DNA of 54,385 bases from Halorubrum ezzemoulense DSM 17463 (GCF_002114285.1 NZ_NEDJ01000017.1:1-54385); one strand, 5' to 3'; counted from the stretch's first letter, positions 19,817 to 48,390 are shown. Notes: generated from the letters alone by a model not told the origin. Numbers and translations are program-made.

Positions 19817-19992
19817 CTCCCTACCCAGACATATCGATCAATCCACTGGTCAGGTACTCCATGACGTCACACTGTCCCATCGGATGAGATCTCGAGTGGA
19901 CGGGATAGATGCGATCGGTACATGATAGATAGGCGCCTCGCAACGAAATTCAGTATCCCTTGTCCACCAAAACTTATACAATCTCGAATGTT

Positions 19993-28866: not shown

Positions 28867-29655
28867 ATGCTGTTCCAAATCGACGTAGTGGCCGAGCCTG
28901 TCCCTGGTGATCTCCCGATTTGGTTGATTACACTGGGTATCGAAGCGATGTTCCTCGGAGTAGTTATACACACTGTCCAACAGCGAGGATTATATTCGCA
29001 GTATACCAAGCGAGAGCGCCTTGTCGGTGTGTTTGGTCTCGGAATCGGGTATTTTTTCATTGCGCTCTCATTCATCAGCGCCAATTTCGGTCTCTACGGT
29101 ACGTATCTGTACTTGCTGTTCCGGACAGTCGAGGGCGCAGCAGCTCTCGCGATTTTTATCCGGATACTCTCGTATTTCCGCAGTGGCTCGTACTCCACGA
29201 ATCTCTCTTCGAAAGCCCGTCACATCCTGTTTGTATTCTTCATTATGACGGTCGGTGTGTCACTCCTACTGAAGGTCCTGATTGACGACCCATTCATTGG
29301 CGGCGTGTGGTACAATCTTTCGCTCGTTTATACAGTCTTGGTCGCGGTTTTGACGTTTGTCGCTGTTCGGTGGCGCCTCCGAAAAGTGCAGGCAGACACC
29401 AATATCGGTGTCACCGGCGGGATCGCGCTCGGTGTCGCTGGAGGGCAGATCTACGGCTACAGTCTTGGGGGTGAAATTGCGATCCTGCTAGTTGGGTCAG
29501 TTCTGTACGCAATCGGGTTTTGGAGTGCTGTAGCCTTCGTGTTCTCAGATGGGGTGTGGGGGCTGTTCAGCGACTCGGCCTGCTCACAGTGTGATGCAGA
29601 CTTATCACAGTACAACGACCCGAAATTCTGTCCCCAGTGTGGAAATCCAGTATGA
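28867..29655 (+). CDS. Seven-helix membrane protein with cytosolic zinc-ribbon tail
   Basis: 262 residues. About seven transmembrane segments fill residues 15-230, resembling the sensor halves of haloarchaeal histidine kinases. The C-terminus then switches to a zinc ribbon, CSQCDADLSQYNDPKFCPQCGNPV, of the same type as the soluble clients. No T-x-[LIV]-[YF] motif is present. It is the only multi-helix membrane member of the set and could anchor or signal to the network at the membrane. The three-base gap to the upstream small membrane protein supports co-expression. Confidence 0.82.
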   Translation: MLFQIDVVAEPVPGDLPIWLITLGIEAMFLGVVIHTVQQRGLYSQYTKRERLVGVFGLGIGYFFIALSFISANFGLYGTYLYLLFRTVEGAAALAIFIRILSYFRSGSYSTNLSSKARHILFVFFIMTVGVSLLLKVLIDDPFIGGVWYNLSLVYTVLVAVLTFVAVRWRLRKVQADTNIGVTGGIALGVAGGQIYGYSLGGEIAILLVGSVLYAIGFWSAVAFVFSDGVWGLFSDSACSQCDADLSQYNDPKFCPQCGNPV

Positions 29656-29840: not shown

Positions 29841-30234
29841 ATGACTGAGAATCTCCGCGCCGTCAAACACCACCTGCTCACGTCGGATGGAACTGAGCAG
29901 GCATTTACAGCTGATACAATCGTGAAGTTCGCAAATGCCGATCCACACGCTACGCAGAAACTTCGAAGAACGCTCGAGCAACTCTCATATGAACGCCATC
30001 AATCACGAGTCAACGAGCGGGTCGATCGCGCAATCTCTCATATCGAGTCTCAAATCAATACTCGTGGACCGCCGTACTCTGACCAAATCGAAGGGAGCAC
30101 CTCCAATCAAGACGAGAATACACCACCAACAACAGTCGACCACAGATGCGAACTACTGTGTAGTGTGCGGGACGGAACTTCCAGCCACCGGACCGGCGAA
30201 CTATTGTCCCGGCTGTGGCGCCGAGGTTTCCTAA
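29841..30234 (+). pseudogene. Small zinc-ribbon client, frameshifted
   Basis: The start at 29841 gives a helical, basic domain (MTENLRAVKHHLLTSDGTEQAF...RVDRAISHIESQI). The expected tail lies in another frame as KTRIHHQQQSTTDANYCVVCGTELP...NYCPGCGAEVS with its stop at 30234. The change of frame is best placed near 30100-30115, where NQD would have led into TRIY-like sequence. It may be a sequencing error or a recent mutation. The downstream kinase gene follows closely. Confidence 0.7.
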
Positions 30235-30316
30235 GGATAGCGGAGCAATCGCCCCCCGATAGCAGATTTCTGCCGGTGGCGCGTACAGCCGCATGTATCG
30301 ATAGCGACCCCACCCA

Positions 30317-31531
30317 ATGACGTGGGATCTCAATCAGGGTGACAGGGTCAATGGGAGATTTACACTCCAATCACAGATCGGAAAAGGGGGGTTTGCAACC
30401 GTATGGAAAGCACGAGACGAGACGACTGGGAGTACAGTCGCGCTCAAACTTCCCGATGACTCCTCTCATAAACGGTCGGTCGTCAGGACACGGTTTGAGC
30501 AGGAGAGTCGGATTCTCTCAGAGCTTACAAGCTCAGTGACGCCATCGTGTATCGGTCATCCAATCGATTCGAATACTGCTCGTGGACGCCAGTATCTCGC
30601 CCTGGAATACATTTCGGGTGGAGATCTTAGCTATCAGAACGGGACAGGTAGGGGTGGCTCGACTACACACTCAGCTAGCGATCTCCCGTTCGCAATCGCA
30701 CAGATGGTGGCGTTTCTCCACCATAATGACATCCTCCATTTGGATATCAAGCCGAAAAATATCCGCTATCGGGAGGATGGAACTGTCGCGCTGATCGACT
30801 TCAATACGAGTATTCGGCAGGAGACAGGCGACTCGACGCTATTTTACGCAGACCCGTATACTCCACCAGAACTAGCCCCAACTGACCTCCGTGATGCAGC
30901 GACCGGCCCGTGGTCAGATGTCTATAGTGCTGGGAAAGCTATCCACTATCTCTTGACTGGGACAACTTACGATCTTGATGAGACACCGTCTGGGGGAGTT
31001 CAACCTCATTCTGATGGGGCGGATTGTCCACAGGGGGTTTCCTCAGTGATTCAAGACGCAACGAAACGCGATCCCTCTGCTCGACCTACAGATGGCTGTG
31101 AGTTCCTCGAACAGCTCCGCACGGCAGCTGACCGGTCAATGCCGACTGCACACCTAGTCGAGTCACAGCACGACATCACAGTCGAAGTCGGACCCGATAC
31201 CTCGGTTGGCCGCCCGCTCAGACACGAGCCTACTCCTGATATCAAACTTCTCGATAGCCAACAACACATCTCTGAACAACAATTTTGGATTGACTGGGAT
31301 GGCTCCCGCTGGGTCTTGTATGATACCAGTTTGAACGGCACGTACATTAACGACGGTTCAGGGTGGACGTGGATTCTCAGTGAAGACGGGTATCATCAAC
31401 AACTGTCCGCCGGGAGGATTGATCGCACAGCCGCCCAACCCCACGAAGGCGCAGTCCTCACTGGTGGAACTACGATCGCGCCAGTTGACCCCGGATACGG
31501 TTTTCAGTTGGTCTTTGCCACCGACGAGTAG
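30317..31531 (+). CDS. Ser/Thr protein kinase with C-terminal FHA domain
   Basis: 404 residues. The kinase domain (about 12-275) has a glycine loop GKGGFATVW (22-30), the ATP lysine in VALKLPD (K44), the catalytic loop HLDIKPKN (141-148) and the metal site DFN (161-163, Asn in place of Gly of DFG). PPEL (182-185) closes the activation segment. The FHA domain (about 285-400) shows VGRPL, SEQQFWID and SLNGTYIN. It would phosphorylate and also bind phospho-threonine proteins. It is the first gene of the island core. HRD is HLD, which keeps the catalytic aspartate, so it is probably active. Confidence 0.87.
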   Translation: MTWDLNQGDRVNGRFTLQSQIGKGGFATVWKARDETTGSTVALKLPDDSSHKRSVVRTRFEQESRILSELTSSVTPSCIGHPIDSNTARGRQYLALEYISGGDLSYQNGTGRGGSTTHSASDLPFAIAQMVAFLHHNDILHLDIKPKNIRYREDGTVALIDFNTSIRQETGDSTLFYADPYTPPELAPTDLRDAATGPWSDVYSAGKAIHYLLTGTTYDLDETPSGGVQPHSDGADCPQGVSSVIQDATKRDPSARPTDGCEFLEQLRTAADRSMPTAHLVESQHDITVEVGPDTSVGRPLRHEPTPDIKLLDSQQHISEQQFWIDWDGSRWVLYDTSLNGTYINDGSGWTWILSEDGYHQQLSAGRIDRTAAQPHEGAVLTGGTTIAPVDPGYGFQLVFATDE

Positions 31532-31563
31532 TTCCCTCGTTACTGGTTATCCGGATCAAAGTA

Positions 31564-31641
31564 CTCTGTTGAATCCGAAGAAGGCGGCAGGATAACGTCG
31601 TTCTGAAGGCAGTAGCGAAGCGGAAGAGTCGAATGTGCCTA
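31564..31641 (+). repeat. Solo terminal fragment of an IS5-type element
   Basis: CTCTGTTGAATCCG and the next 60 bases match the right terminus of the element at 51994-52926 (read in reverse), including GTAGCGAAGCGGAAGAGTCGAATGTG. The rest of the element is gone. It directly abuts a truncated propeller gene. Confidence 0.7.
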
Positions 31642-31648
31642 ATTACAG

Positions 31649-31843
31649 CAGGGTGACTCTTCGCCGACAGTGGCAGATGGAACCGTCTATGTCGGAAGCA
31701 GGGATAACAAGCTCTACGTAATGGACCTGACAGACGTCAAAAACTTAATTAAGACATATTCAGCAACTTCTAGAGGATACTTTGTGTTAACTGAACTCTC
31801 TCCAAATCTCTTCACGCACATTAATAGATTGGCAGGCCTTTAA
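31649..31843 (+). pseudogene. Remnant of a PQQ-like propeller gene
   Basis: Sixty-four codons read GDSSPTVADGTVYVGSRDNKLYVMDLT, a propeller blade, followed by a non-homologous end and a stop. The front was removed by the IS whose end precedes it. It shows that the island once held a sixth propeller. The next 110 bases (31844-31957) hold nothing recognisable. Confidence 0.65.
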
Positions 31844-31957
31844 TGCCACCAGAGGAGTCACTTCGGATACAGACGATTCGCTCACCACCGCAGGCGGTGT
31901 AGATCTTGAACCCCAATTAGGAGATATATTGGTAAAAATCTAATAAAGTCCACTACC

Positions 31958-33082
31958 CTAAGATATTCGAATAACAGCACTGGCCACGCCATCCGCAAGG
32001 TCAACTTCTGCCCCGCCAGATAACGGCTGAGACTCGCCGTTTGACAGTTCTCTTCCATTCAATTGCGTTCCGTTCGAGCTATTCAAGTCTTGAATCTTGA
32101 GTGTTCCGTTCCTCTGATAACCGAGTGCAAAATGCGTGCCCGAAATATACTGACGCTGTCCTTCGGCTACGTGCTCAATAAAATCGTCTCGACCGAAGCG
32201 GACCCGCTGGCCTGAAGCGAGTTCTTCGGTGATGACTCCACCGCCAGCGATATCAAGTTTAACCGTAACGCTGCGTGACGAAGCAGTAGATCCTGGCCTC
32301 GGCGCTGTTGCGGTGGATGATTCACTCGAATCTTGTATTACAGTATCCCCTGACTGAATGGTCTCTCCTGTGATTGTAGTGTAGGTGTCTTTGAGGTTGG
32401 TACCAGTGGTTTCCGCGATCGGGATCATCAAGAGCAGTTTCAGTAGCGCCTGCTCGACCTCGGTGGCTTGTGCGTGGTTATGGAAGGCTGTATAAACAAT
32501 ATCTCCACGACCGTGTGAAAACTTATACGCAAGGATGTCGCCCGTTGTTGAATCACGCAATAGGGAAGTACTGCCCTGAGGGATCGTCTTAGGTTTGTAC
32601 CAGCCACCAAGATCAAATTCGATCTCGATCTGTTGTTTGCCGAGTAACTCAACCAACTCCGGATCGTCAACGCTAGTTGTGACCGTCTGTGTCTGAGTCG
32701 ACGTGTCGAACGCTGACGCAGTAAACGTTGTTAAGAGTTCACCCGCATAATCGGAAATGATCGCCGCTCCACCGTTTCTAATAAATGTATCGAGCGAGTC
32801 AGTAATTGAGTCATTACTGAACGTATCTTTGATAAAACTCTCAAGTGATGAGGAGTCGACCGCCGCATCCAGCGCTTTCCCAAGAGTACCGATCGCATCG
32901 TCGCGCCACTTAGTATGGCAGTTGATCATCAACACGCCATCGTCCATCGCGGGCAGGTTCGCCTGGTCGATCCCTTGATAATTTACCTCAAGTTTTTGTA
33001 ATACCTCACCCATGTCATCGTATCCGGATTCGCTCACGTAAATCGGCGGAATTTCGTACGAACCAAGCCCGTTGTTGGCCAT
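31958..33082 (-). CDS. FHA-domain protein with amidotransferase-like front domain
   Basis: 374 residues from the ATG at 33082 (MANNGLGSYEIPP); a longer start at 33118 is possible. The first 220 residues have alternating strands and helices (VLMINCHTKW, GGAAIISDYAGELL, DIVYTAFHNH) that recall class-I glutamine-amidotransferase-like or ThuA-like folds, with no clear catalytic triad. A linker with DTVIQDSS precedes the FHA domain (about 275-370), which has RFGRDDFI, ISGTHFAL and NSSNGTQLNG. It is a cytosolic phospho-threonine reader within the core cluster, oriented against its neighbours. Confidence 0.78.
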   Translation of the reverse strand: MANNGLGSYEIPPIYVSESGYDDMGEVLQKLEVNYQGIDQANLPAMDDGVLMINCHTKWRDDAIGTLGKALDAAVDSSSLESFIKDTFSNDSITDSLDTFIRNGGAAIISDYAGELLTTFTASAFDTSTQTQTVTTSVDDPELVELLGKQQIEIEFDLGGWYKPKTIPQGSTSLLRDSTTGDILAYKFSHGRGDIVYTAFHNHAQATEVEQALLKLLLMIPIAETTGTNLKDTYTTITGETIQSGDTVIQDSSESSTATAPRPGSTASSRSVTVKLDIAGGGVITEELASGQRVRFGRDDFIEHVAEGQRQYISGTHFALGYQRNGTLKIQDLNSSNGTQLNGRELSNGESQPLSGGAEVDLADGVASAVIRIS

Positions 33083-33294
33083 ACGACAGTGTATCAACTG
33101 AAACGTAATATAGGTCACCCAGCCGACTAAGAACGCAGTAGAGGCCTACAACATCAATACAGGTGACTCTATGACGGATATAGTGGAAACAGACAGCGCT
33201 GGTTTGATCGTCAGGTGTTGATTACCTTGTACGGTGTAGTATCGATTGGGTAAGAGAGTGGCTGACTGCCGCCTTAGTTACCACCCCTGAATTA

Positions 33295-33825
33295 ATGAGT
33301 TCTCAGTTAACATACCACCATATGACAGAAGACGAGAAATCGTTTCGCGAACGCGTTAAAGAGATTCGTGAACAACGGGAACAGGAACGGAACAATGATG
33401 ACTCCCATGTCGGTCAGGGGGTCCAAGCGGATCAACAGGGCAGTTTTCAACCAGACATTCCCGACATGGATCAGTTTCTTGAGCAATTTGCGACAGAACT
33501 CTCTGGATGTCGAATAGTTGTGGAGACCAACGATATGCGGCTTGAGTTTCATGATCAGTCATTATACAAGACCCAATTGGGTACGGGACCGATGTATCAG
33601 TTGCTTGGTGAGCCAGACCGAAAAGAACCGATCCACGGTGACACCCGAAACCATGACCCTACCCCGTCAACATCGACAGATTCAACGACAAAGGTGTTCA
33701 CGCCCGATTCAAACGGAGGCTCTGGCGGACAAGACACAACAATTGAGTTCTGTCCTGGATGCGGGTCGGACATAGGGTCGTTTGCCGACATCCAGCACTG
33801 CCCATATTGTGGTCGCGAGTTGTAG
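33295..33825 (+). CDS. Small client protein with TTKVF motif and zinc ribbon
   Basis: 176 residues. A charged helical start (DEKSFRERVKEIREQREQ) leads to a domain of about 80 residues (MDQFLEQFATELSGCRIVVETNDMRLEF...YQLLGEPDR) that I do not recognise. The linker has STTKVFTPD and the end is a zinc ribbon (FCPGCG...HCPYCG). A second ATG at 33322 is an alternative start. It lies inside the kinase/FHA core, so it is probably a direct client. Confidence 0.77.
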   Translation: MSSQLTYHHMTEDEKSFRERVKEIREQREQERNNDDSHVGQGVQADQQGSFQPDIPDMDQFLEQFATELSGCRIVVETNDMRLEFHDQSLYKTQLGTGPMYQLLGEPDRKEPIHGDTRNHDPTPSTSTDSTTKVFTPDSNGGSGGQDTTIEFCPGCGSDIGSFADIQHCPYCGREL

Positions 33826-33854
33826 CAGAGCAACTGCGTGGACTATAGTAGTTA

Positions 33855-34373
33855 CTAGAAATAATTACCCTCATTTGGAATCGAGAGTTGATCAAGAGCA
33901 CTGTCGATCGCTGTTGTAAGTTCGTCGAGTGAATCAAAAAAGCGGTTGCTGAGAGCTGCTTGGAGCCTTATCCAGCATTCTTCGACTGGGTTTAGTTCTG
34001 GCGAATATGAAGGAAGCGTCACGAAGGCGAGGTCGTCACGGGCCGCAAGGTCCGTGACGGCCGATGCCTGAAAGTACGGTGCTCCATCGAGAACGACAAT
34101 CAGATCATCTTCAAATTCTTTACATAGTGCCAAAATGAAATGTTTTGCGTGGTCAGCGGTAATGTACTCTGTAAATCGAGAGAAGAAGCGATCACCGAGG
34201 ACGGTGATCGCGCCGAGCAAGCACGTCCAGTCCCGTTGACCAGATAATTCGACGGAAGGCCGCGTGCCGTGCGGAAACAACGCGGCACGCGGCTCAATTT
34301 GGACCGATTTCTTGGCTTGATCGATACAGACTACTGTGGCGTCCATTTTCCGCCGCTTTTTTGAACTCGTCAT
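33855..34373 (-). pseudogene. IS630-family transposase, catalytic half only
   Basis: 172 residues with the complete DDE part: VVCIDQ, IVVLDGAPYF and SPELNPVEECW. The helix-turn-helix half normally encoded in front is absent; a different sequence lies upstream. It is either one ORF of a two-ORF element whose partner is gone, or a truncation. It is presumably unable to move on its own. Confidence 0.75.
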
Positions 34374-34696
34374 AAAACTCGTCTTGCGCGTCTTCGTCGG
34401 AATCGCTCTTTTGTTACTGGATAATATGACACCACACGAATATTTCCACGATCGGTCTCATACCGGGTTGTATGACCAGCGACAGAATTGACGCCGAAAG
34501 CAAGGTGTCTGGAAACCAAGCGAATATCCCCGCCCAAATTGTGTAGGATCCCGAAATCGACGATGGTGATCAACTCTGTTGACATCTCGAAGACGACGAG
34601 AGCATTCGGGTCCACGTGATCCAACAGCAAACGGGCATGTTCGCCAACTTCGACGGCTACGCTGATGGGGAGACGACCGATGTCACGAGCGATCAC
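34370..34696 (-). CDS. Unrecognised ORF behind the double-FHA gene
   Basis: 108 codons from a GTG, 36 bases after the FHA gene on the same strand. The sequence up to about residue 97 (ALVVFEMSTELITIVDFGILHNLGG...) could be protein, but the last part reads into the IS630 fragment. No family is recognised. It may be a truncated gene or a chance ORF. Confidence 0.3.
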   Translation of the reverse strand: MIARDIGRLPISVAVEVGEHARLLLDHVDPNALVVFEMSTELITIVDFGILHNLGGDIRLVSRHLAFGVNSVAGHTTRYETDRGNIRVVSYYPVTKERFRRRRARRVL

Positions 34697-34732
34697 GACG
34701 CCTAAGGCGTCAACGTCGAGTAAGTTCGAGCC

Positions 34733-35776
34733 TCAATCGAGACTGACAGTAAAGGCCATCAAGTCTTCTCGTGTTCCGAAGGCGAGTTGGTCACCGTCTT
34801 CAAACTGTGTGCGATCATCCACTGTCGTCCATTCTTGTGACTCACTCTCTCTGATAAACGACCCATTTGAGGACTGGTCGATGAGAACCCACCCATCAGT
34901 CGTGTACTCGACGGTGGCATGCGTCCGGGAGACAGTAGATGGACCATCTATCGTCACATCAGCTTGGTCGCCGCGGCCGATTGACTCTCCATCAGAGATA
35001 TCGTACACAACCTGCTCCGGATATCCGTACAGCTGAACTGTTCCAGATTCCGATTCGGATGCCGAATCAGTAGTCGGAGGGTGTTCTGGATCTGCCCACC
35101 CAGCGATTCCCACTCGAAATGTCGCCTCAAAATCGGGGGGTAACACAATGGTGTCGCCATCCGTAACCTCCTGGTACTCATCAGTCGGAATGTCCTCTCC
35201 ATTAAGGACCGTTCCGTGCTTCGAGCCTGCATCACGGATCCAGCATTGTTCGGCCTCAGGATCGATTACAATCTCAAACTGCTCGCGACTGATGCAGAGT
35301 GCCTTTTCACGAGACGTCTGTTCTACAATGAGCGGTCGGAGCTCGGCCCCGACTGACTCCCCATCAGTGAGTGGTACTGCTGTGTCACCCAAGCTAATAC
35401 TCACTTCGAGCCCGCCAGACTCCGATGCTGAAGCAGGTTCCTCAATTGGTGTCGAAGCTTCATCGGTGTCGAGTTCAGCGCCGCACGACCGACAAAAGTT
35501 CTGCTCGGGCTCATATGCTGACCCACACTGTGGACATGACATTTCATCCTGTGTAGCTGCATCGTCGCCGTCACGTGGCGTCTGCTGAGTTGCTGATGAA
35601 GACATCGTTGTAGTAGGAGTGGTGTCTATCTGCTCACGCCCATCAGATTGCTCGTCAGAAGAGGACTGGTCTTTTTCCTGAAATGTCGCCGCAACGGGTA
35701 CACCACATCCATTACAGAATCCGGTGGTGTCAGGATCTAGGTTTGCCCCACAGTTTACGCATTCGATTGAACTCAT
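34733..35776 (-). CDS. Double zinc-ribbon, double FHA-domain protein
   Basis: 347 residues from the ATG at 35776. TATATGTATA lies just upstream, which fits a leaderless start and argues against the longer ORF. The N-terminus holds two zinc modules (CVNCG...FCNGCG and CPQCG...FCRSCG) separated by a disordered linker. Two FHA domains follow (about 130-235 and 240-345), the second canonical with SIGRGDQADVTI, VSRTHATV and SSNGSFI; the first is more divergent (ISREQFEI, SKHGTVLNG). It has the architecture of an adaptor that could bind two phospho-threonine partners at once. It is the strongest reader candidate. Confidence 0.87.
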   Translation of the reverse strand: MSSIECVNCGANLDPDTTGFCNGCGVPVAATFQEKDQSSSDEQSDGREQIDTTPTTTMSSSATQQTPRDGDDAATQDEMSCPQCGSAYEPEQNFCRSCGAELDTDEASTPIEEPASASESGGLEVSISLGDTAVPLTDGESVGAELRPLIVEQTSREKALCISREQFEIVIDPEAEQCWIRDAGSKHGTVLNGEDIPTDEYQEVTDGDTIVLPPDFEATFRVGIAGWADPEHPPTTDSASESESGTVQLYGYPEQVVYDISDGESIGRGDQADVTIDGPSTVSRTHATVEYTTDGWVLIDQSSNGSFIRESESQEWTTVDDRTQFEDGDQLAFGTREDLMAFTVSLD

Positions 35777-35957
35777 TCTGGCTATACATATACCTTCAGT
35801 CATGTTCAATACAGGGGGTGAAACTCGGACAGCTGCTCCCAGTAGTGAGGAGTGGATTCTTCTAGCACGTGAGGTCATTCGCTCTGGCTTTGACCGGCAC
35901 TTTGAATCCGGTAGCTCGAAGTAATTAGGCCTCGTAGGGTTCAGAGAGTGATTACCG

Positions 35958-36485
35958 GTGGCCAAGTCAACTCCAGCATTTCAAGATCTTACCGGCTCGG
36001 CCGAGCGGTTCGACCCGCATCGCGCTGAGCATGAGATTCATCGAGCAGTGAATCAAGTTCGGACTGCCCACGGTCTCGAGTCACTCTCATATCAGGACGA
36101 TATTGCAAACGTTGCACGCCAGCATAGTCACGATATGGCAGCCCAAGGGTACGTTGGCCATCAGTCACCGGGTGGAGCAAACATCAAAGACAGACTCGAC
36201 AAGCACACAGCGCCCCGTGGGTCGTCACGAACTCAGTATACAGCCTGCGGCGAAAACATCGCCCGGAGCCACTATGACTCTCGTGTGGCACTCGATGATG
36301 GGACAGTCATCAAATTCCAATCGCTGTGGGAATTTGGCCACGGGGTTGTGCACGGCTGGATGCAGTCGTCAGGGCACCGTTCAAATATACTTCGAGACTC
36401 GTGGACAGCCGAAGGAATTGGGATTGTGAAGCACGCACAAAGTGAGGTTCTCGTAACGCAGGTGTTCATTGGTTCACACAGATGA
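35958..36485 (+). CDS. CAP-superfamily (SCP/PR1-like) protein without signal peptide
   Basis: 175 residues from a GTG. The CAP signature is present: ARQHSHDMAAQGYVGHQSPGG, TACGENIAR, VHGWMQSSGHRSNILRDSWTAEGIGIV. CAP proteins are usually secreted, but no signal peptide or membrane helix is visible here. The stop overlaps the next gene, a kinase-like protein, by four bases (ATGA), so they are co-translated and perhaps function together. The divergent double-FHA gene lies upstream. Confidence 0.85.
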   Translation: MAKSTPAFQDLTGSAERFDPHRAEHEIHRAVNQVRTAHGLESLSYQDDIANVARQHSHDMAAQGYVGHQSPGGANIKDRLDKHTAPRGSSRTQYTACGENIARSHYDSRVALDDGTVIKFQSLWEFGHGVVHGWMQSSGHRSNILRDSWTAEGIGIVKHAQSEVLVTQVFIGSHR

Positions 36486-37306
36486 CGGAGATTCACAGTG
36501 GGAAACTTATTGCTGGGAGGTTTCGATGTCGCCGCCGACTAGCAAATGGTGGGAGAGTGACGATCTGGAACGCCGACGATATCCATCGATCAACCGGTGT
36601 TGTAGTGAAGGTCCCACAGATTAGTGCTCGCTCAGTTGGTGGATTTCCTGCGTTCAACCACCGAGTAGCTATCCTTCGGGAACTGACCACTGGGTCCACA
36701 CCGCCGCTGGTTCCAACTATCTACGACAAAGGCACGCTTGAGACAGGAAGACCGTATCTAGTGCAGTCGCTTGTCGACGGCCAACTTGCAACTGAGCTAC
36801 AGTGCGGCGATCGTCACAAAGCGCTTGGTCGGCTTTGCAGTCGACTGTGTCAGTTCGCACGTGGACTGCATCGACACGGGCTTGTTCACACCGATCTCAG
36901 ACCGCAAAATATCGGCACCCTCGATTCAGGTGCGTATCGAGTACTCGACTTGGGGGGAGTTAACGAACGGACACGGTGTGCAGACTGCGGTGTATACCCG
37001 GCGGCTGGAGCAGGAAACCAGTGTTCGGCATGTGGAGCCTCACTGACTGATTCAGCACCGCAAATCGACCTGCCAGCGATGTCGTTTCGGCCTCCAGAAT
37101 TGGCCACGACTGAGGTTGTTGGACCGTGGAGTGATGTGTACTCAATTGGGCGGATTCTGGAGCATGTTCAGGCGAACCTCTGGGAATCCACAGCGACACT
37201 CATTCCCCAGTCGCTGCTTGAACGGGCGACAGCCAACCCTCACGAGCGATTTCAGACTCCAACAGATCTGCTGTGTGCAGTAGAGTCAGTCCGCAAATCT
37301 GCGTGA
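36482..37306 (+). CDS. Kinase-like protein with a zinc ribbon in the activation segment
   Basis: 274 residues. Kinase features: a weak glycine loop (LANGGRVTIW, 20-29), an ATP lysine in VVVKVPQ (K43), catalytic loop HTDLRPQN (136-143) and metal site DLG (156-158). A zinc ribbon CADCG...CSACG (166-185) follows at once, and then RPPEL (203-207) and GPWSDVYSIGRIL. The ribbon therefore sits inside the activation segment. The glycine loop is degenerate, so activity may be weak. There is no FHA domain. It is co-translated with the CAP gene. Confidence 0.83.
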   Translation: MTEIHSGKLIAGRFRCRRRLANGGRVTIWNADDIHRSTGVVVKVPQISARSVGGFPAFNHRVAILRELTTGSTPPLVPTIYDKGTLETGRPYLVQSLVDGQLATELQCGDRHKALGRLCSRLCQFARGLHRHGLVHTDLRPQNIGTLDSGAYRVLDLGGVNERTRCADCGVYPAAGAGNQCSACGASLTDSAPQIDLPAMSFRPPELATTEVVGPWSDVYSIGRILEHVQANLWESTATLIPQSLLERATANPHERFQTPTDLLCAVESVRKSA

Positions 37307-37335
37307 GACGTGTGTACTGGGTAGAAGTATCGAGT

Positions 37336-38601
37336 TTATTCGACGAGGCTGTGTCCACACTGTGGGCAGTACTTTGGATCGGTATATTCCTCGAGATTGT
37401 TTCCACAGACCGTACAAAACTTGTCCGGTGAATCAGTGACTGCGTCTGCGCCACCGAGTTTCACCACATAGCCGTCGGCTGTCCCGATGAAGAGGGCGTG
37501 ATTGCCAACAATGTGTCTGACCGGTTCGAATGTTGAGAACGTCCGTGTATCGATCACGTCACCGGAGGCAGTATCGACCACACACAACTGCTGACCAACG
37601 TAGGTGTACAGGCGGTCTCCAGCGACAGTCGTCGAGGTAGCACTGACAGTTGGTGAATCGGGATGCCGATCAATATCTTGACTCCAGTTCACATCACCCG
37701 TCTCAGAGTCCAACGCGAGGATGTGATCTTTGTATGTATCAGTGGCATACAGTGTATTGGGTCCCAACGCGATGTGATACTCCCCGTCGCGTTGCCAGTC
37801 GATCACGCCGGTGTGCTTGTCAATGCGTGTGAGCCCATCGCCAGTTGGGCTCCCGGACGACGCCTCTTGAGCAATGAATACCCCAGTGTCACCGACAACG
37901 GGCGCTGACGCATCATTGAAGCGATCAACATGCCCGTGAATATCGACATCCCACACCCTCTCTCCTGAGAGAGTTAGTGCGTGAACGATCCCATCGACGA
38001 TTGGCTCTGGTGCAGCCCCAACGACCTGTCGTTGGAGCAAATAGACGCGCTCACTGTCAGCCGACGGGTGGCAAAACCGCCCGTCATCGATTGAATACTC
38101 CCAGTGCTCAGTCCCGTCTAGTGAGTACAGCCGGGCGACACCCTGTCGTGTCGCGATGATGGAGTTAGAATCTACTGCCGTCGGTTTCCACACGTCTGTG
38201 GAGAGCGTATTGATTCCAGAGTCCCCATCAGGAGTGGGTGGAGCCTCGAACTGATTGGTCATCGTCCCATCGGCTGTGCGGTAGACAGCGATGGACGTGC
38301 CGCCAACGACGAGAAACTCGCCAACGACACAAAGCCACGGGCCACCACGAGAATGATCGTGTGTGAGATCTGCCGCCGATTGCGACCAGACAGCATCGCC
38401 AGAAGCGACATCAAACGCATAGAGCCACCCGCCGGCAGTCGCATAAAAGAGCACCCCGTCAGCCATGACTAGACTGGTTACCTCAGTAGGTCCACCAAGC
38501 AGTTCTTCAGCTACCTCGGGGCTCACAGCGCCTGGTCCCTGTGATGGCGTTTGGGATCTGCGACGGCTATCAGATTTCTCTGTCTTCCAGTCGTTGGTCA
38601 T
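37336..38601 (-). CDS. PQQ-like beta-propeller with zinc-ribbon tail
   Basis: 421 residues from the ATG at 38601 (an upstream in-frame ATG lies at 38619). After a charged, disordered N-terminus (about 1-30), propeller blades follow (LYAFDVASGDAVW, ARLYSLDGTEHW, LALDSETGDVNW, CVVDTASGDVI) to about residue 380. A zinc ribbon ends it (FCTVCG...YCPQCG). It has no T-x-[LIV]-[YF] motif, in contrast to the other intact propellers. No signal peptide is present. It is convergent with the kinase-like gene and sits in the core. Confidence 0.85.
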   Translation of the reverse strand: MTNDWKTEKSDSRRRSQTPSQGPGAVSPEVAEELLGGPTEVTSLVMADGVLFYATAGGWLYAFDVASGDAVWSQSAADLTHDHSRGGPWLCVVGEFLVVGGTSIAVYRTADGTMTNQFEAPPTPDGDSGINTLSTDVWKPTAVDSNSIIATRQGVARLYSLDGTEHWEYSIDDGRFCHPSADSERVYLLQRQVVGAAPEPIVDGIVHALTLSGERVWDVDIHGHVDRFNDASAPVVGDTGVFIAQEASSGSPTGDGLTRIDKHTGVIDWQRDGEYHIALGPNTLYATDTYKDHILALDSETGDVNWSQDIDRHPDSPTVSATSTTVAGDRLYTYVGQQLCVVDTASGDVIDTRTFSTFEPVRHIVGNHALFIGTADGYVVKLGGADAVTDSPDKFCTVCGNNLEEYTDPKYCPQCGHSLVE

Positions 38602-38800
38602 GGTAATTGGTGGTCTCATAGACCGAGTACAAGGATCCTCTTGATGGTTTTGGCACGCTCAAGAGCCAGTGCTCGACATTCACTGGGTGGCAATCGTGGC
38701 TGCCCGCACAGCGGCCATCGCTAATTATATAATACATCATACATGATAGTGACGTGAACATCCAGACTGTAGGTCACTTTTATTATACCAACGAAATACT

Positions 38801-40042
38801 ATGCCGGATATGAGTTGGACGCCGTCTCAAGGAGATACTATTTCTAAGGGCGATTCCTATGAATTTATTGAACAAGTTGGAAGCGGAGGGTTCTCAGTAG
38901 TATGGAAGGCTCAGAACCAGTCAACTGGTGAGGATGTCGCTATTAAGGTTCCGAACTATGCCAATGCGAACATGCCGGATACAGATATCGAGGTGTATTT
39001 TGGGCGCGAGTTGAGCGCGCTTGAAGATATTACGAACGCAGGAGGGCACCCCCATATAATGGAACTTCATGAGTCGGTAAGCCATCAGGGAGTCGATCTC
39101 ATGGTGGTCGATTTTATCACTGGAGAGCTCATGGAGGACGTCCAGAGCATCACCGATCCACAGAATGTGCGACAGATCGGAATCGCAATCTGTGATATTT
39201 TCTCCTTTCTTCACGAGAATGAGATTATCTACCGTGATCTGAAGCCCGACAATATAATGCTGACGGGGAATGACGAGCCGAAGCTCATTGATTTTAATAC
39301 GGCCCGAGATCCGCTCCAGTGTCCAAACGGACATGAGATCAAGTTCGAGAATGCAGACCAGAATCACTGTACTGTATGCGGGACAGACTTGAACTCAGGA
39401 ACTGTTGTGACCGCGGGTGGGAAATTCAAAGCGCCAGATCTGACCAATCAACAGTACCGGCAGGGCCCGTGGACTGACGTATACGCCATTGGAAAGATCC
39501 TTTTTTATATTCTTAATTCTGGGCAAGCAGTCATTCAGGACAACATCGATCCACGTGACTATCAGGTATCCACGTCGGCTCCACTCGCGGAGATTATTCA
39601 GCGCTCTACTGCGGTCAATCCGACAAACCGGTTCAGGAATGCGACGGAGATGAAAGAGGCGCTCGAACAGAACGACGCCTCAGTCTCTGGTCCATCAGCG
39701 ACGCTTCGAATTCAATCGACCGGGCAAGAGTTCACTGTCTCGCCAGGAGACACGCTTGGCCGAAAGAATACCGCTGGCCCGTATGCGACAATCGAAGTCG
39801 ATGACCCGGGGAACGATGCCTATATTTCCAGAATTCACATGAAATTCGAGCATGAGCAAGGGCGGTGGGTCCTCAAGGACACGAGTAAGAACGGGACCAT
39901 TCTGTATAAGAATGGGACGCCGTATCAGCTTGATTCGACCTCACGTACGCAGAATCCCGATCGCCGTGCGCTTGATGATCGAGACGTCATCTCCCCCGTG
40001 GCCGAAAACTATGGGTTAGATTTGCAGTTCAGGACCAATTGA
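38801..40042 (+). CDS. Ser/Thr protein kinase with activation-loop zinc ribbon and FHA domain
   Basis: 413 residues. The kinase domain has all main elements: GSGGFSVVW (27-35), K49 in VAIKVPN, YRDLKPDN (144-151) and DFN (164-166). Between DFN and APDL (211-214) a zinc module is inserted, CPNGHEIKF...HCTVCGTDL (174-197), as in the neighbour at 36482. GPWTDVYAIGKIL follows. The FHA domain (about 295-405) has TLGRK, YISRIHMKF and SKNGTILY. It is likely an active kinase that docks on phospho-threonine targets. TTATTATACCA lies some 20 bases before the start. Confidence 0.9.
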   Translation: MPDMSWTPSQGDTISKGDSYEFIEQVGSGGFSVVWKAQNQSTGEDVAIKVPNYANANMPDTDIEVYFGRELSALEDITNAGGHPHIMELHESVSHQGVDLMVVDFITGELMEDVQSITDPQNVRQIGIAICDIFSFLHENEIIYRDLKPDNIMLTGNDEPKLIDFNTARDPLQCPNGHEIKFENADQNHCTVCGTDLNSGTVVTAGGKFKAPDLTNQQYRQGPWTDVYAIGKILFYILNSGQAVIQDNIDPRDYQVSTSAPLAEIIQRSTAVNPTNRFRNATEMKEALEQNDASVSGPSATLRIQSTGQEFTVSPGDTLGRKNTAGPYATIEVDDPGNDAYISRIHMKFEHEQGRWVLKDTSKNGTILYKNGTPYQLDSTSRTQNPDRRALDDRDVISPVAENYGLDLQFRTN

Positions 40043-40275
40043 AATCGCACTCAATTCAGACGGAGCGGTCGAATTGGAACTGTTGTAGCAAGAGGGCTTG
40101 CTATCAGTACATTGACTCTCTCTACCCGAATCTTGCTTCACACTCAGTAGTTTCTCTCTAAGCAAGAGGATATCAGCGATTCAAATCGCTTCCGTATAGG
40201 AGGAACCACGCTCTGATGGCGAGGAGTGACTTGCACCAAGATTTAATGCACAATGTGACAAAACCTTGGATAGTA

Positions 40276-41055
40276 ATGAGCACTGAATGTTCTGTGTGCG
40301 GACACGAATTCAATGCAGGGCCGGATGACAAATTCTGCCCAGAGTGTGGTGCTGGAATCGGTCAGTCACAAGGAGGAGGGCAGTCCGGAGGCCAGCAGCC
40401 TGGTGGACAGAGTCAGGGCGGCAATCAACAGCAGCCTGGTGGCCAGCAACAACCCGGTGGGCAAGGCCAGGGCAGCAATCAACAGCAGCCTGGCGGCCAG
40501 CAACAACCCGGTGGGCAAGGCCAAGGCGGCAATCAACAGCAGCCTGGCGGCCAGCAACAACCCGGTGGCCAGCAACAACCCGGTGGCCAGCAACAACCCG
40601 GTGGGCAAGGCCAGGGCAGCAATCAACAGCAGCCTGGCGGCCAGCAGCAACCCGGCGGTCAACAGGGCCCAGGTAACCAACAGCCAGCCGGTAATCAACA
40701 AGGTCCCGGTAATCAGCAGGGGCCTGGCGGCGGCTCAACGGTTGTTCAAGACTCTGTCGTACTCCGATTCACCCGTGGAGGGTCCTTCGAGGCACCCACC
40801 GGTGAAGTCGTCGGTGAAAATATCCGTGAAGTGCTCAAGATCAATGGGGCCTCAGATCGAGAGGCTCGCCACGTGAGCCGGGAACACCTCCAATTTACAG
40901 TTCAAAACGGCGTCTATTATGTAACGGACATGAATAGTTCGAATGGAACCCAACTCAATGGCCAGAAACTCGCCCCCCAGCAGCAGTATCAGCTGTCGGA
41001 TGGCGACAATCTGAACTTAGGAACCGTTGCAGACGCCACGGTGGAACTGAATTAA
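40276..41055 (+). CDS. Zinc-ribbon / PGGQ-repeat / FHA protein
   Basis: 259 residues from the ATG at 40276 (MSTECSVCG). An N-terminal zinc ribbon (CSVCG...FCPECG, about 5-23) is followed by about 125 residues of Q/P/G/N repeats (QQQPGGQ units) that must be disordered. A C-terminal FHA domain (about 160-259) has VSREHLQFTV and NSSNGTQLNG. Just before the FHA domain, STVVQDS resembles DTVIQDS of the FHA protein at 31958. It is a phospho-threonine reader on a long flexible tether. The repeats could favour condensate or scaffold formation. The longer upstream ORF start adds no conserved sequence. Confidence 0.87.
   Translation: MSTECSVCGHEFNAGPDDKFCPECGAGIGQSQGGGQSGGQQPGGQSQGGNQQQPGGQQQPGGQGQGSNQQQPGGQQQPGGQGQGGNQQQPGGQQQPGGQQQPGGQQQPGGQGQGSNQQQPGGQQQPGGQQGPGNQQPAGNQQGPGNQQGPGGGSTVVQDSVVLRFTRGGSFEAPTGEVVGENIREVLKINGASDREARHVSREHLQFTVQNGVYYVTDMNSSNGTQLNGQKLAPQQQYQLSDGDNLNLGTVADATVELN
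40418..40660 (+). repeat. Tandem 54-bp coding repeat (QQQPGGQ minisatellite)
   Basis: About four units of 51-54 bases encode G-[GS]-N-QQQPGGQ-QQPGGQGQ. The third is enlarged by two further 18-base blocks (GGCCAGCAACAACCC-GGT type). The near identity of the DNA shows recent expansion by slippage or unequal exchange, so length is expected to vary between strains. Confidence 0.85.
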
Positions 41056-41217
41056 CGGCTGAGGCTTCGGTTTCGGTTTCTCAGCAAGCAGAAATTCGTC
41101 CATCCTTTCATTCTGAACTGCTATTGAGGAACACGTATCAACAGATCCCGATATCCAACAACCTTGCTCCACTCAGGTCGACAAAAGGTTGAAAGTGTGC
41201 TCTGTCAATAAACAACC

Positions 41218-42246
41218 ATGGATTACGCAGCACAGGTGGATATTGGTCGAAAGCGGTCCGACAAACTAAACGAGGACAGCGTTGGAACGCTTGTGTTCAA
41301 TGAGGTTCATCGAGACCGCCGTCGGGCAAGTGCTGGCGTCTTTGTGGTCGCCGATGGTGCCGGCGGATATGAAGGCGGTGACCTCGCCTCGTATATTGCT
41401 ACAACGTCGATTCCGGATTCACTGAGTGATCTGGTGTTCCGACTATCGAGGGGCGAGACAAGTCCGTTTGATGACCTAGATGTCCCTGATACAGTGACTC
41501 GATCACAACCAACCGAACAAGAAATCGGGAGCGAAATCCAAGATGCGATTCAGAATGCGGGGACGCTCATTACGGAAAACACTGTAGACGGCGCACGGTC
41601 GTCCACAACCGTCACCGCTGGAGTGTATGCCCGTGGAATGCTCAATCTCGGGTGGGTCGGTGACAGTCCGGCGTATGTTATCAACACTGGTGAAGAGACG
41701 ATCGAGAAGATCTCCCGGGATCATTCACCCGTTAGTGACTGGGTTGTTGACGGAGAACTGGATCCAGTTGTGTCACGGGTCCACCCGGATTCGAACAGTG
41801 TGAACCAGTTGGTTGGTAATATGAACTTCACCACAGAACTCCGTCAATTGCCACTCTTCGGTGATGATATTGTATTGTTCACAAGTGACGGCCTTGTCGA
41901 CGCACACAAAGAAAAGAACCGAGAACTCTATGAGAAATTCTCTCGTTCTAATGATCCAGAGTCAGTAAAAGCGCAAATCAAAGAAACCGTTATCACTGAT
42001 GAGGAGATTAAAGAGATCGTCCTCTCACACAAGGACGACTTCGATGCTACAATCGAGCGGCTCATCAGCCGTGCAAACCGCATAGGTGGGGCAGATAACA
42101 TTTCGATGATCATGTTCAGAGATCCATCGCGCCCAACGATCGCAGAAGCCGGGAAAACAGATCTAGACCGGACCTACGGCGAGCCAGCGTCGGATGCGGT
42201 GCCGATTCAAGACGCAGAGACTCGTCCACTCCCAGACCCTGAGTGA
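41218..42246 (+). CDS. PP2C-type Ser/Thr protein phosphatase
   Basis: 342 residues with the PP2C metal-site motifs in order: RKRSDKLNEDS (about 12-22), FVVADGAGGYEGGD (about 42-55), LGWVGDSPAYV, LFTSDGLVD and GGADNISMIMF near residue 292. It dephosphorylates phospho-Ser/Thr in the cytosol and is the natural counterpart of the two FHA kinases upstream. After the catalytic domain a short disordered tail ends DAETRPLPDPE, a variant of the shared motif with Pro-Leu instead of Leu-Tyr. It is followed within 100 bases by the vWA gene, the same pairing as in TerY-type triads. Confidence 0.92.
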   Translation: MDYAAQVDIGRKRSDKLNEDSVGTLVFNEVHRDRRRASAGVFVVADGAGGYEGGDLASYIATTSIPDSLSDLVFRLSRGETSPFDDLDVPDTVTRSQPTEQEIGSEIQDAIQNAGTLITENTVDGARSSTTVTAGVYARGMLNLGWVGDSPAYVINTGEETIEKISRDHSPVSDWVVDGELDPVVSRVHPDSNSVNQLVGNMNFTTELRQLPLFGDDIVLFTSDGLVDAHKEKNRELYEKFSRSNDPESVKAQIKETVITDEEIKEIVLSHKDDFDATIERLISRANRIGGADNISMIMFRDPSRPTIAEAGKTDLDRTYGEPASDAVPIQDAETRPLPDPE

Positions 42247-42313
42247 GAGTTATCGATCGCCAGCGCACGGGGGTCCTAGCTGAATCTATACAGTCACTCC
42301 GTTGTGTGCGCTA

Positions 42314-42330
42314 CATTAAATATAATATAT
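42314..42330 (+). promoter_or_regulatory. TATA box of the vWA gene
   Basis: ATTAAATATAATATATA lies about 14-30 bases before the ATG at 42344, the spacing expected for a leaderless haloarchaeal transcript. It supports the longer protein start and its own promoter for the gene. Confidence 0.6.
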
Positions 42331-42343
42331 AGTAAGAATTTGG

Positions 42344-43594
42344 ATGAGATGCGGGGAAAGCTACTTTGCCCTCCTGTCAAATAGTTCGGGTATGTCTGCT
42401 CAGCTGAGTGCAAAATTAAACCGTGCCAACCTGCCCGCAGACGGTGGGCAAGTGTTCTGTGAATTAGACATTCAAGGCGGGACCCAACGGGGTCAGTCCC
42501 AGCAGTACATCGCCTTCTGTATCGACGTTAGTGGCTCGATGCAAGGAGACAAGATCGAGAATGCTCGGAGTGCCGCTTCGCAGGTCCTCGGCTCACTCAA
42601 CGATGAAGACTACGTGAGCCTAGTGACGTACGATTCCTCTGCTGATGTTGAGTACCCCGCAACGAAGTGGGGTGGGATGAATAAGTCGGACCTTCGAAAC
42701 GCGATCTCCAATCTGGATACCGGGGACTACACCAACATTTCAGATGGGTTGGAGCGGTGTCGGTCTGAACTACAATCGCTCCCAGGTGGCCGTGATGTCG
42801 CAAAGTCGATTCTGCTGTTAACGGACGGCAAACCCAATCGGGGCCAATCATCAGAATCTGAGCTCCGTAGCCTCGCACAAGAACTGTCAGATTCTGGTAT
42901 TTCGGTGTACGCGGCAGGGCTGGGGACGAATTACAACCAAGACATCGTCCGTACAATCGCCGAGGGGTCCAACGGGGAATGGGACCACATTACCAGTCCC
43001 AACCAGATCATGGACTTCTTCGACCGCGTCATCTACAAAGGGAGCCAAACTGTCGTTGCTAGTCCACAAGTCCATATCGAACCCCAAGGGATCGAAATCG
43101 GCGAGATCTACCGGAGGCAACCGCAGGTACAGGAAGTCGATGTGGATCGCACTAGCGGACGCCTCACAGCCGGCTTACCAAACCTCCAAAATCAGCAAAC
43201 CCAGCAACTGTTGTTCCGGTTCGAAGCGCCAAGTGGGGAGCTGAATACGCAACGGACAGTGGCGAATATTCAGGTGACGCAGAATAACGACACCCTCCAG
43301 GAGATGGACCTGTATGTGAATTACGTCCCTAATGCAGGGCAATACGCGGAGAATGACGTTGTCCGGGCCCGCTTTGCGGACGCCCAAGCCAGACACGCCG
43401 CGTCGACTGGCGATGCAGATCAGGCCTCGACGATCATCGCAGGCCACGGCCAAACGATCGCGAGTCAAGATGGCCAAACGATCATCAATCAATCCCAACA
43501 GCAGATCGAGCAGCTCAAACAAGCCGATACGGTGGTTGGGCAATTCGAGAACAAGAGCCAGGTGACAAGGACAAAGCGACACGAAGGAATCTGA
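42344..43594 (+). CDS. von Willebrand factor A domain protein
   Basis: 416 residues, or 400 from the second ATG at 42392 where the conserved part begins. The vWA domain has an intact MIDAS: DVSGSM (61-66), a later threonine (about TGDYTNISDG) and LLLTDGKP. A beta-rich region follows (EIGEIYRRQPQVQEVDVDRTSG...) and then a Q-rich helical end (about 350-416). There is no signal peptide. Such vWA proteins with PP2C and kinase neighbours resemble TerY-P modules; metal-dependent binding of a network protein is likely. The segment ADTVVGQF near the end is only loosely like the tail motif. Confidence 0.88.
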   Translation: MRCGESYFALLSNSSGMSAQLSAKLNRANLPADGGQVFCELDIQGGTQRGQSQQYIAFCIDVSGSMQGDKIENARSAASQVLGSLNDEDYVSLVTYDSSADVEYPATKWGGMNKSDLRNAISNLDTGDYTNISDGLERCRSELQSLPGGRDVAKSILLLTDGKPNRGQSSESELRSLAQELSDSGISVYAAGLGTNYNQDIVRTIAEGSNGEWDHITSPNQIMDFFDRVIYKGSQTVVASPQVHIEPQGIEIGEIYRRQPQVQEVDVDRTSGRLTAGLPNLQNQQTQQLLFRFEAPSGELNTQRTVANIQVTQNNDTLQEMDLYVNYVPNAGQYAENDVVRARFADAQARHAASTGDADQASTIIAGHGQTIASQDGQTIINQSQQQIEQLKQADTVVGQFENKSQVTRTKRHEGI

Positions 43595-45039: not shown

Positions 45040-45636
45040 TCAGCTAGGACCGATTTCTGATCCGCAGTGTGGACAGTATCTTATTTCATTTGGTTTCATA
45101 AGTTCTGTCCCACAACCTGAGCAATAGTTGGGTGAATTTGACTGTGGGACATCACTATTAGTATTATCAGAGGAGTATACTTTGGTTGAGAATTCTGATT
45201 CCTTGTTTGATATATTTTTTGTAGGAATATTTTTACTAGACTCAGGTCTGTCCGGTCTGACAATTTTTCTGTAGAAACTTCCGCTATTTTCATACTGGAT
45301 GTAATTAATTGTATCACCAGAAGAAAGGCCCTCAGCTACTGGCGTAGAAATCTCAAAGGTGTCATAGTTTTCAATATCCATAATAATCACTTCTTCGTTA
45401 TTACCAATATTGACAATTTGTCCTTCTCGTTCTTCGACAGATGGAACCCGTATTTGATCGTTTAGATCTAACTGTAATTCAACAACGTCATCATTAGAGA
45501 ACACACCTTTAGCCTTGATTTCAGCCGTTCCGTTTGTTGATTGGTAGTCCTGTACTTCATAAGGCAGTCCTTTGTGCGAAATTAAAATATAATTTCCTTC
45601 CTGTATTTTTTGTATTCTTTTCAATTTTGGTGCCAT
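45040..45636 (-). CDS. aIF5A-like domain with STKVY motif and zinc-ribbon tail
   Basis: 198 residues. Positions 5-127 follow archaeal translation factor IF5A almost end to end: KRIQKIQEGNYILI, AEIKAKGVF, DQIRVPSVEEREGQIVNI, IMDIENYDTFEI and a final RKIVRP. The loop that carries the hypusine lysine (KPGKHGSAK in IF5A) is shortened to STNGTAE, so no hypusine can form. The linker has FSTKVYSS (149-156) and the end is a zinc ribbon (172-191). It is very AT-rich. It is probably a ribosome- or RNA-related paralogue recruited as a client; a translation role is inference. Confidence 0.82.
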   Translation of the reverse strand: MAPKLKRIQKIQEGNYILISHKGLPYEVQDYQSTNGTAEIKAKGVFSNDDVVELQLDLNDQIRVPSVEEREGQIVNIGNNEEVIIMDIENYDTFEISTPVAEGLSSGDTINYIQYENSGSFYRKIVRPDRPESSKNIPTKNISNKESEFSTKVYSSDNTNSDVPQSNSPNYCSGCGTELMKPNEIRYCPHCGSEIGPS

Positions 45637-47504: not shown

Positions 47505-48390
47505 TCAAGTCTCGTAGATCCTGGTGTCACCGGTATCATTAGGATTATTTCGGGTAGACTCCTCACTTTCCGATCCGAACCGTGGTGGTACCGCTCGTCC
47601 CTGTTGCGCCTCATGAAGCCCTGGGAACGAGCTCTCGCGTATCATCCCATCTTCTGGACGGATCATCTTCACGAACATGATGTAATCGGCGCCGGGGAAG
47701 CCGTCCGTCGCGCGACTGGTAACACAGTTCGCACATTGCTGGAGCCGTGCGTCCATCGGATTGGAACAGGCACCGCAGTGCTGTAACAGCAGGCGCGAGT
47801 TCCTTCCGATTTCGTATTGAACGGTTCCGAATACATCTGACCACAGCATGTCAAACAACTCGCCAATATGGTCCCAGCTGGTTGGACCGCGTAGTCGACC
47901 CCGTCTGGACGTGTAGAGGGTTCAACCCACCTGATCGCTGGCTGAGTTCTTCTACACGGGTTGTCTTCCACATGAAAACGAACTCACTGTCGTCGGAGAA
48001 CTCACTCGTGATACAGTCGTAGCAAGTCGGGTGGAGCGGGGTCGCTGGCATCGGACAATCATGTGCCCGAACGTGTAGAATCTCTGTTTCGTCGTCAAGG
48101 ATTGCCCAGCTTGGCTTGCCGTCAATCGCCGAACTCCAGTGATAAGTAGTAGGGTCAGTGAGTGGATTCAATCGCGTCAGGAGCGAACTCGCGTCAGTAC
48201 CGTTGAAGACCCGCCCGGTGGAGATATCGCTGATCGAGGCTGATGACGGAACGATAGGAAAGTGATCGACGAGAACCGCGAGCATGCCAAATCCGTGTCC
48301 GCTGGCGAAACATACGAAGAACAGGGCCGGGCATTCCTTGAGCGTCTCGATGAGCAGGGAGTTCCAGTACTTGCAGTACCTAGGAATCAC
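47505..48390 (-). pseudogene. Client gene ending in DTRIYET, frameshifted
   Basis: Two minus-strand frames join near 47880. The first is a 179-codon front part with SASGHGFGMLAVLVDHF-like hydrophobic sequence and a CYDC pair. The second part (GPTSWDHIGELFDMLWSDVFGTVQYEIG) holds a cysteine cluster CGACSNPMDARLQQCANC and ends TGDTRIYET. The front domain is not recognised. The final motif and the zinc cluster mark it as a member of the client set. The joined product would have about 290 residues. Confidence 0.6.

Follow-up and report, generated by a model that had tools for sequence, protein, structure and literature searches.

What is the function of a gene cluster of a haloarchaeon in which protein kinases, FHA-domain proteins, a PP2C phosphatase and a vWA-domain protein are encoded side by side? 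The question is raised by positions 30317-43594 of a contig of Halorubrum ezzemoulense DSM 17463 (C64), which was analysed over its complete length of 54,385 bases (the window). The sequence-only reading had likened the cluster to an expanded archaeal form of the bacterial TerY-P triad. Sequence comparisons indicate that the cluster is probably the hub of a haloarchaeal phosphothreonine (pThr) tag network with a core of the ArnA/ArnB (ArnAB) type. A more specific interpretation, which is somewhat favoured, is that the tag and a zinc ribbon constitute a modular address label, added to unrelated folds (propeller, HEAT, winged helix, TATA-binding protein (TBP), cold-shock, and UBA). One mobile ArnAB-like hub of kinases, FHA proteins, and PP2C, which holds the only FHA readers of the genome, would write, read, and erase this label, and could recruit clients encoded elsewhere.

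The C-terminal threonine tag

About 15 proteins encoded in the island around the cluster, here called clients, share a C-terminal tag and belong to unrelated folds (PQQ propeller, HEAT, winged helix, UBA, and OB-like). The tag is Thr-specific and has the consensus [DE]-T-x-[VI]-[YF]-(D-P). It is located at the end of the protein or immediately ahead of a zinc ribbon at the C-terminus, in most cases beside such a ribbon, and often occurs twice. The motif T[RK][VIL][YF] is present within the last 75 residues of 12 of the 45 non-transposase island proteins, whereas 1 of 372 other proteins, taken from 390 kb of this genome, has it there (p = 7e-12). The enrichment disappears from this test when the Thr is replaced by Ser, Ala or Val. 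The motif was first spotted by eye in the window; therefore, this p-value is not independent, and tests outside the window weigh more. C-terminal zinc ribbons are found in 14/45 island proteins and 6/372 elsewhere in the genome, which bears out the earlier remark that the cluster is combined with many zinc-ribbon clients.

Evidence independent of the window comes from the enlarged islands of three other genomes (G112, G174, and G229) and from a membrane protein of the compact core described below. Matches to T.[VIL][YF] in protein tails, observed versus shuffled, are 10 versus 2.2 in G112, 14 versus 1.4 in G174, and 25 versus 4.1 in G229, an excess of five- to tenfold. Overall, 71 matches were observed, compared with a mean of 11 in composition-preserving shuffles (maximum 22 in 400 runs), whereas control motifs starting with S, D or E remain near the shuffle expectation overall. 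Among 70 sites, D/E is favoured at position -1, K, E, R, and Q are common at +1, and the following positions have V/I/L (+2), Y/F (+3), D or T (+4), and P (+5). In the compact-core membrane protein, T-[RQ]-[VI]-[FY] is the sole conserved block of a variable linker of ~100 residues. One such protein is exceptional: its frame is probably over-extended, and TRVF is located further in.

The tag might be an artefact of chance and composition, produced by the T/S/D-rich tails of haloarchaeal proteins and by an island low in G+C content and rich in insertion sequences. The tails are of low complexity, several transposases are present, and the G+C content of the island is 0.52, versus 0.67–0.73 for most sampled contigs of the genome (about 0.70 in many), although some other contigs also have low values. 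However, the composition-preserving shuffles reject such an origin, the enrichment repeats in three other genomes of different G+C content, and the explanation is barely credible.

FHA domains bind pThr but not pSer; therefore, the restriction of the tag to Thr fits FHA readers. The phosphosite of the mycobacterial protein GarA, VETTSVF, which was checked in PDB entries including "Rv1827 pThr 22", contains T22-S-V-F in the form of the tag. According to the title of Nott 2009 (cited in PMC12321487), this phosphosite is read by the FHA domain of GarA.

Alternatively, the tag might serve in docking or degradation independently of phosphate, for instance as a ligand of the proteasome or of the metal-ion-dependent adhesion site (MIDAS) of the vWA protein, with the kinases and FHA domains acting elsewhere. 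Several tags are positioned at the extreme C-terminus (TRIYDPK, TKLYDPS, and TRLYDP), acidic residues flank the tag, and the MIDAS is intact. However, this interpretation is quite improbable in view of the strict use of Thr with no Ser enrichment, the many clients in which the tag is inside a linker, and the match to the FHA-binding site of GarA. In addition, propeller homologues carry the tag only in genomes that have an FHA island: tagged tails were found in 3/3 island PQQ propellers among the top matches, and in 0 closed propeller homologues of other genomes.

The other islands add cold-shock and TBP proteins to the tagged clients. In the product of one gene (L050 14264-14974, - strand), a TBP domain is combined with a zinc ribbon at the C-terminus and the terminal tag TQVYNPSE. 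G229 also encodes three isolated propeller proteins with zinc ribbons far from the hub (L156 7774-9120, L157 8822-9970, and L158 7382-8557), two of which are tagged (TKVY and TQIY), whereas the third has Ser in place of Thr (KSQLY). The L156 propeller gene adjoins an operon with weak similarity to mad8/HerA and MCM-OB.

Hub proteins compared with ArnAB, TerY-P, and other systems

The vWA protein has three parts: the vWA domain, a split beta-sandwich, and C-terminal helices. The best PDB sequence match of an alignment of 18 vWA sequences (A1) is ArnB (8s05, E 1e-21), and ArnE/vWA2 (5a8j) ranks third. The AlphaFold model of the protein (predicted local distance difference test score 86) was aligned by Foldseek over its full length to the actinobacterial vWA protein 4fx5, ArnB, vWA2, and Sec23/24. 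The template-modelling scores are 0.68/0.73 for ArnB, over the whole chain, and the TMq values are 0.68 for 8s05 and 0.61 for 5a8j, with a root-mean-square deviation of about 5 Å. The protein is thus a full-length ArnB/Sec23-24-like protein. Its MIDAS residues are intact (D61xSxS, T130, and D161), and a Thr in the C-terminal tail is kept in nearly all orthologues (for example, ATKIVTDE and NTTVVYDAG).

The protein encoded at 40216-41055 (Zn-FHA) has the architecture of ArnA, including the Gln-rich linker, and ArnA itself is a weak sequence match to it (E 6e-4). In the ArnA protein SisArnA, a flexible loop that contains QQ motifs links a zinc ribbon to an FHA domain (PMC10470591). In the core kinase, the catalytic residues and the Arg, Ser, and Asn-Gly-Thr of the FHA domain, which contact pThr, are invariant in 14 orthologues. 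The model of the core kinase is nearest in fold to Mycobacterium tuberculosis PknB, including the PknB-GarA complex.

A zinc ribbon directly after DFN/DLG in the activation segment was observed in Kin2 and Kin3 of the window and in kinases elsewhere (genomes G234 and G174; loci L031 10476-13940 and L050 10803-12164). Many compact-core orthologues lack the insertion and have T-T-I-[LV]-G-P-[FY]-K-P at this place. That the ribbon couples the binding of clients or of the vWA protein to kinase activity is speculation.

The nearest known system is that of Sulfolobus ArnA/ArnB with a kinase. The module is assigned to the ArnAB type, with a large client set, because the kinase is fused to an FHA domain, the vWA protein is ArnB-like, and Zn-FHA has the architecture of ArnA. 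Both systems combine a protein made of a zinc ribbon, a Gln-rich linker, and an FHA domain with an adjacent vWA protein and a kinase partner. The split beta-sandwich and helical C-terminus of the vWA protein are also shared, as is a Thr near its C-terminus, which in ArnB can be phosphorylated. The C-terminal bundle of ArnB is phosphorylated and then bound by the FHA domain of ArnA (PMC6509490, PMC12852372), and the zinc ribbon binds the vWA protein on its own (PMC12852372). Regulation of archaellum or DNA-damage genes is a further trait of the ArnAB module. The phosphatase type (PP2C in haloarchaea, PP2A in Sulfolobales), the kinase-borne FHA domain, and the tagged clients are new relative to ArnAB. 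The Sulfolobales kinases are ArnC and ArnD, of which ArnC has been described as containing OB and TPR-like regions. The tagged client set and the tagged membrane protein distinguish the haloarchaeal system, whose hosts are Halobacteria.

TerY-P is defined by a TerY-like vWA protein, a PP2C, and a kinase whose C-terminus carries a zinc ribbon (PMC11090510). The resemblance noted by the sequence-only reading is real in that a vWA protein, a PP2C, and a Ser/Thr kinase are encoded together in a conserved block, in which three classes of domains are adjacent. However, membership in TerY-P is not supported, in view of the kinase fusion, the vWA architecture, and the missing TerD. The kinase ends in an FHA domain instead of the C-terminal zinc ribbon or OB fold of TerY-P kinases, and its ribbon is inside the activation segment. 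No TerY model matched the vWA protein of the window, and a TerY-like identity looks unlikely in view of its ArnB/Sec24-like architecture, a contrast drawn by architecture and not by direct comparison with a TerY sequence. TerD is absent from the genome, in line with the earlier statement that no Ter gene is visible, and the other three genomes with an enlarged island lack it as well. No restriction genes are among the Pfam matches of the island; thus, the association of TerY-P with Ter and restriction genes is not observed.

The cluster could nevertheless be a TerY-P-type triad that functions in defence or in the stress response, in which case the zinc-ribbon proteins would sense metals or nucleic acids and the tag would be incidental. 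A kinase, a PP2C, and a vWA protein are combined at 30317-43594, triads of these proteins are known from conflict systems (PMC7159879, PMC11090510), and the kinases of the cluster score against PADLOC models such as PD-T4-6 and MAD6, but as generic kinases. Furthermore, distant vWA relatives on Halorubrum and Haloplanus plasmids (L123 and L124) adjoin genes for Hsp70-family and tubulin-like proteins; these neighbourhoods resemble published nucleoside triphosphate-dependent conflict systems and represent a system different from the island. The cassette interpretation is unlikely because, in addition to the differences from TerY-P listed above, no defence gene was found in the island, and the tag is Thr-specific and far above chance. 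Among anti-phage kinase systems (PD-T4-6, MADS, and BREX PglW), the scores were far under the NCBIfam cut-offs for MAD6 and PglW. The non-kinase core proteins had no PADLOC match. The classification as a defence system was rejected, as the PADLOC matches reflect generic kinase similarity and the neighbours of the isolated G229 propellers gave only the weak similarities mentioned above.

Two bacterial pathways offer partial parallels to the pThr-tag network. The GarA/OdhI-PknB/PknG switch of Actinobacteria has a PknB-like kinase and an FHA-read acceptor, T-S-V-F, of the tag form. However, GarA is a single protein with an intramolecular switch, whereas the island tag is present on many separate clients; one FHA protein of G229 bears a tag, TQVY, in cis. 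In the PpkA-Fha-TssL pathway of the type VI secretion system, pThr placed on TssL by the kinase is read by the FHA protein (PMC3953482). There is only one client in that pathway, and the island has no secretion genes.

Island genes and their distribution in Halobacteria

The island spans about 8.8 to 50.3 kb, beyond the limits of the cluster at 30317-43594 (Table 1). The genes that the sequence-only reading had named in the cluster are all present in the list of open reading frames and were identified by Pfam: three kinases, two of them with FHA domains, three further FHA proteins, one PP2C, one vWA protein, a CAP protein, and a propeller. The reported adjacency of PP2C and vWA also holds, as the genes for Kin3, Zn-FHA, PP2C, and the vWA protein follow each other on the + strand with gaps of 97–173 bases. 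Orthologues of Kin1 adjoin the core or lie in islands.

Table 1. Hub genes and clients of the island, in order of position. Genes were predicted with a home-made scorer, so that start positions are approximate and a few genes are miscalled.
Position	Strand	Protein	Tag or supporting match
8806-9480	+	Double winged-helix (HrcA-type), zinc ribbon	TEVY 9337-9348, TRVY 9370-9381
10154-11383	+	Client-like PQQ propeller, zinc ribbon	Degenerate tag only
12462-13448	-	PQQ propeller, zinc ribbon	TKLF 12633-12644
15291-15776	-	Client of no assigned fold	Ends TTKIFDS 15300-15311
16606-17652	+	HEAT-like, zinc ribbon	TRVF 17479-17490
19960-21270	+	PQQ propeller, zinc ribbon	Terminal TKLYDPS 21247-21258
22539-24050	+	HEAT repeats, double zinc ribbon	TKLYDP 23850-23861
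24903-25595	-	UBA (HYPK-type) x2, zinc ribbon	TSLY 25074-25085, TKLYSP 25032-25043
25552-26178	-	Client of no assigned fold, zinc ribbon	TAIYTP 25738-25749
27289-28392	-	HEAT/adaptin-like repeats, no ribbon	TRLYQP 27373-27384, terminal TRLYDP 27298-27309
28867-29655	+	Membrane protein, C-terminal zinc ribbon; conserved in G112 and G229 islands	No tag
30317-31531	+	Kin1, FHA-kinase; catalytic Lys, HLDIKPKN, DFN; C-terminal FHA keeps GR, S, NGT	Pkinase 2e-25, FHA 4e-7
31958-33118	-	FHA2, N-terminal domain with no Pfam match and FHA; marker of enlarged island	Pfam
33295-33825	+	Client, zinc ribbon	TKVFTPD 33688-33699
34733-35965	-	Two zinc ribbons and two FHA domains	Pfam
35958-36485	+	CAP-superfamily protein with homologues in the islands of G112, G174, and G229	Pfam 4e-16
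36482-37306	+	Kin2, weak kinase, no FHA; zinc ribbon after D-L-G	Pkinase 1e-5
37336-38619	-	PQQ beta-propeller, C-terminal zinc ribbon	Pfam 8e-20; no tag
38801-40042	+	Kin3, core FHA-kinase, PknB-like; zinc ribbon inside activation segment; FHA residues canonical	Pkinase 7e-28, FHA 2e-6
40216-41055	+	Zn-FHA, ArnA-like: zinc ribbon, long Gln/Gly-rich linker, FHA	Pfam
41218-42246	+	PP2C phosphatase; metal-site motifs NEDS, VADG, SDGL, GGADN	Pfam 1e-9; NCBIfam Stp1-type model 4e-34, under model cut-off
42344-43594	+	ArnB-like vWA protein	Pfam 2e-26
45040-45636	-	OB/eIF5A-like (weak), zinc ribbon	TKVY 45175-45186
46187-47425	+	PQQ propeller, zinc ribbon	Terminal TRIYDPK 47402-47413
47505-47858	-	Short protein	Ends TRIYET 47514-47525
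49905-50282	+	Short protein, zinc ribbon	TNIYQDD 50172-50183

The propeller gene at 12462-13448 contains a single in-frame stop near residue 188 and is either a pseudogene or affected by a sequence error. At 29841-30320 (+ strand), the window corresponds to a G112 protein of 152 amino acids with the tag TKLY and a zinc ribbon (L048 2528-2986). The window copy looks frameshifted, because the homologue matches two overlapping frames. A dual-specificity-phosphatase-like protein is encoded at 14122-14538 (- strand), with a look-alike in the G229 island (L052 4663-5088); it is a possible second eraser. The N-terminal domain of FHA2 shows good conservation across three islands, for example in the YDDMG and FHNH stretches.

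The possibility, allowed for in the sequence-only reading, that the cluster is a chance assembly of one strain is contradicted by a neighbourhood search in haloarchaeal genomes, in which the core recurs at other loci and in other genomes. Relatives of the PP2C are present in 53 of 391 Halobacteria genomes (about 13%), mostly Haloarculaceae and Natrialbaceae, and none was found in other genomes of the genus Halorubrum among those listed. Synteny was read from 20-kb neighbourhoods of about 45 loci, and the same neighbours surround the PP2C gene at nearly all loci fetched. The recurrent compact core consists of the vWA protein, the FHA-bearing Hanks kinase, PP2C, the protein with a zinc ribbon and an FHA domain, and a membrane protein that has a zinc ribbon at its end. 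In a second collection, with partly overlapping genomes, its hosts include Haloarcula, Halomicrobium, Halosimplex, Halomicroarcula, Salinibaculum, and Natrinema. The enlarged island, marked by FHA2, was found in 4/391 genomes (G000, G112, G174, and G229), which represent four genera and two families.

FHA domains were found only on this contig in a search of the whole genome, and in ten genomes examined every FHA domain found falls within the cluster. The transposase reading frames of the island and the ParA/integrase at the contig end suggest that the contig is a mobile or plasmid-like replicon, and the enlarged version of the island is horizontally acquired. Scans for FHA2 in a further set of genome contigs and in a set of viral contigs gave zero matches, indicating no viral carrier in these sets, and the PP2C had no match in a plasmid collection. 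No description of the haloarchaeal cluster was found in the literature, with subscription papers outside the search.

The proposed circuit and its significance

The retained kinase and FHA residues, the PknB-like fold, the GarA-type site, and the Thr-only tag together point to a cycle of writing, reading, and erasing. Kin1 and Kin3 would phosphorylate the tag threonine. The FHA domains of the kinases and adaptors would bind the resulting pThr tag, with Y/F at +3 and often as tag pairs, and PP2C would take the phosphate off. The zinc ribbons probably add a second, phosphate-independent contact, by analogy with ArnAB. A signal could thus assemble many clients on the vWA hub or release them from it, and in the compact form this may occur at the membrane. 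The output would most likely be, as a tentative guess, that of a starvation or stress regulator of gene expression, as suggested by the winged-helix, TBP, cold-shock, and OB-like clients and by the role of ArnAB in Sulfolobus.

Apart from the discovery of the motif in the window itself, several observations weigh against the proposed network. The tail of the vWA protein in the window, VTRTKRHEGI, is divergent and a poor tag, and several FHA domains are without the canonical His or Arg. The ribbon proteins encoded from 28867 and 37336 have no tag, and some of the island clients are paralogues.

FHA proteins have been described as conserved in Crenarchaeota only (PMC10470591), and archaeal signalling by FHA domains and pThr is so far known essentially from ArnAB of Sulfolobales. 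The haloarchaeal module would be a second, widespread archaeal lineage of ArnAB-like logic, and its whole writer-reader-eraser circuit is open to testing in a culturable group (Haloarcula and Natrinema). From the enlarged form, candidate substrates with single predicted phosphosites can be listed directly. If the proposed network is correct, the common tag on unrelated folds would represent a natural modular signalling code.

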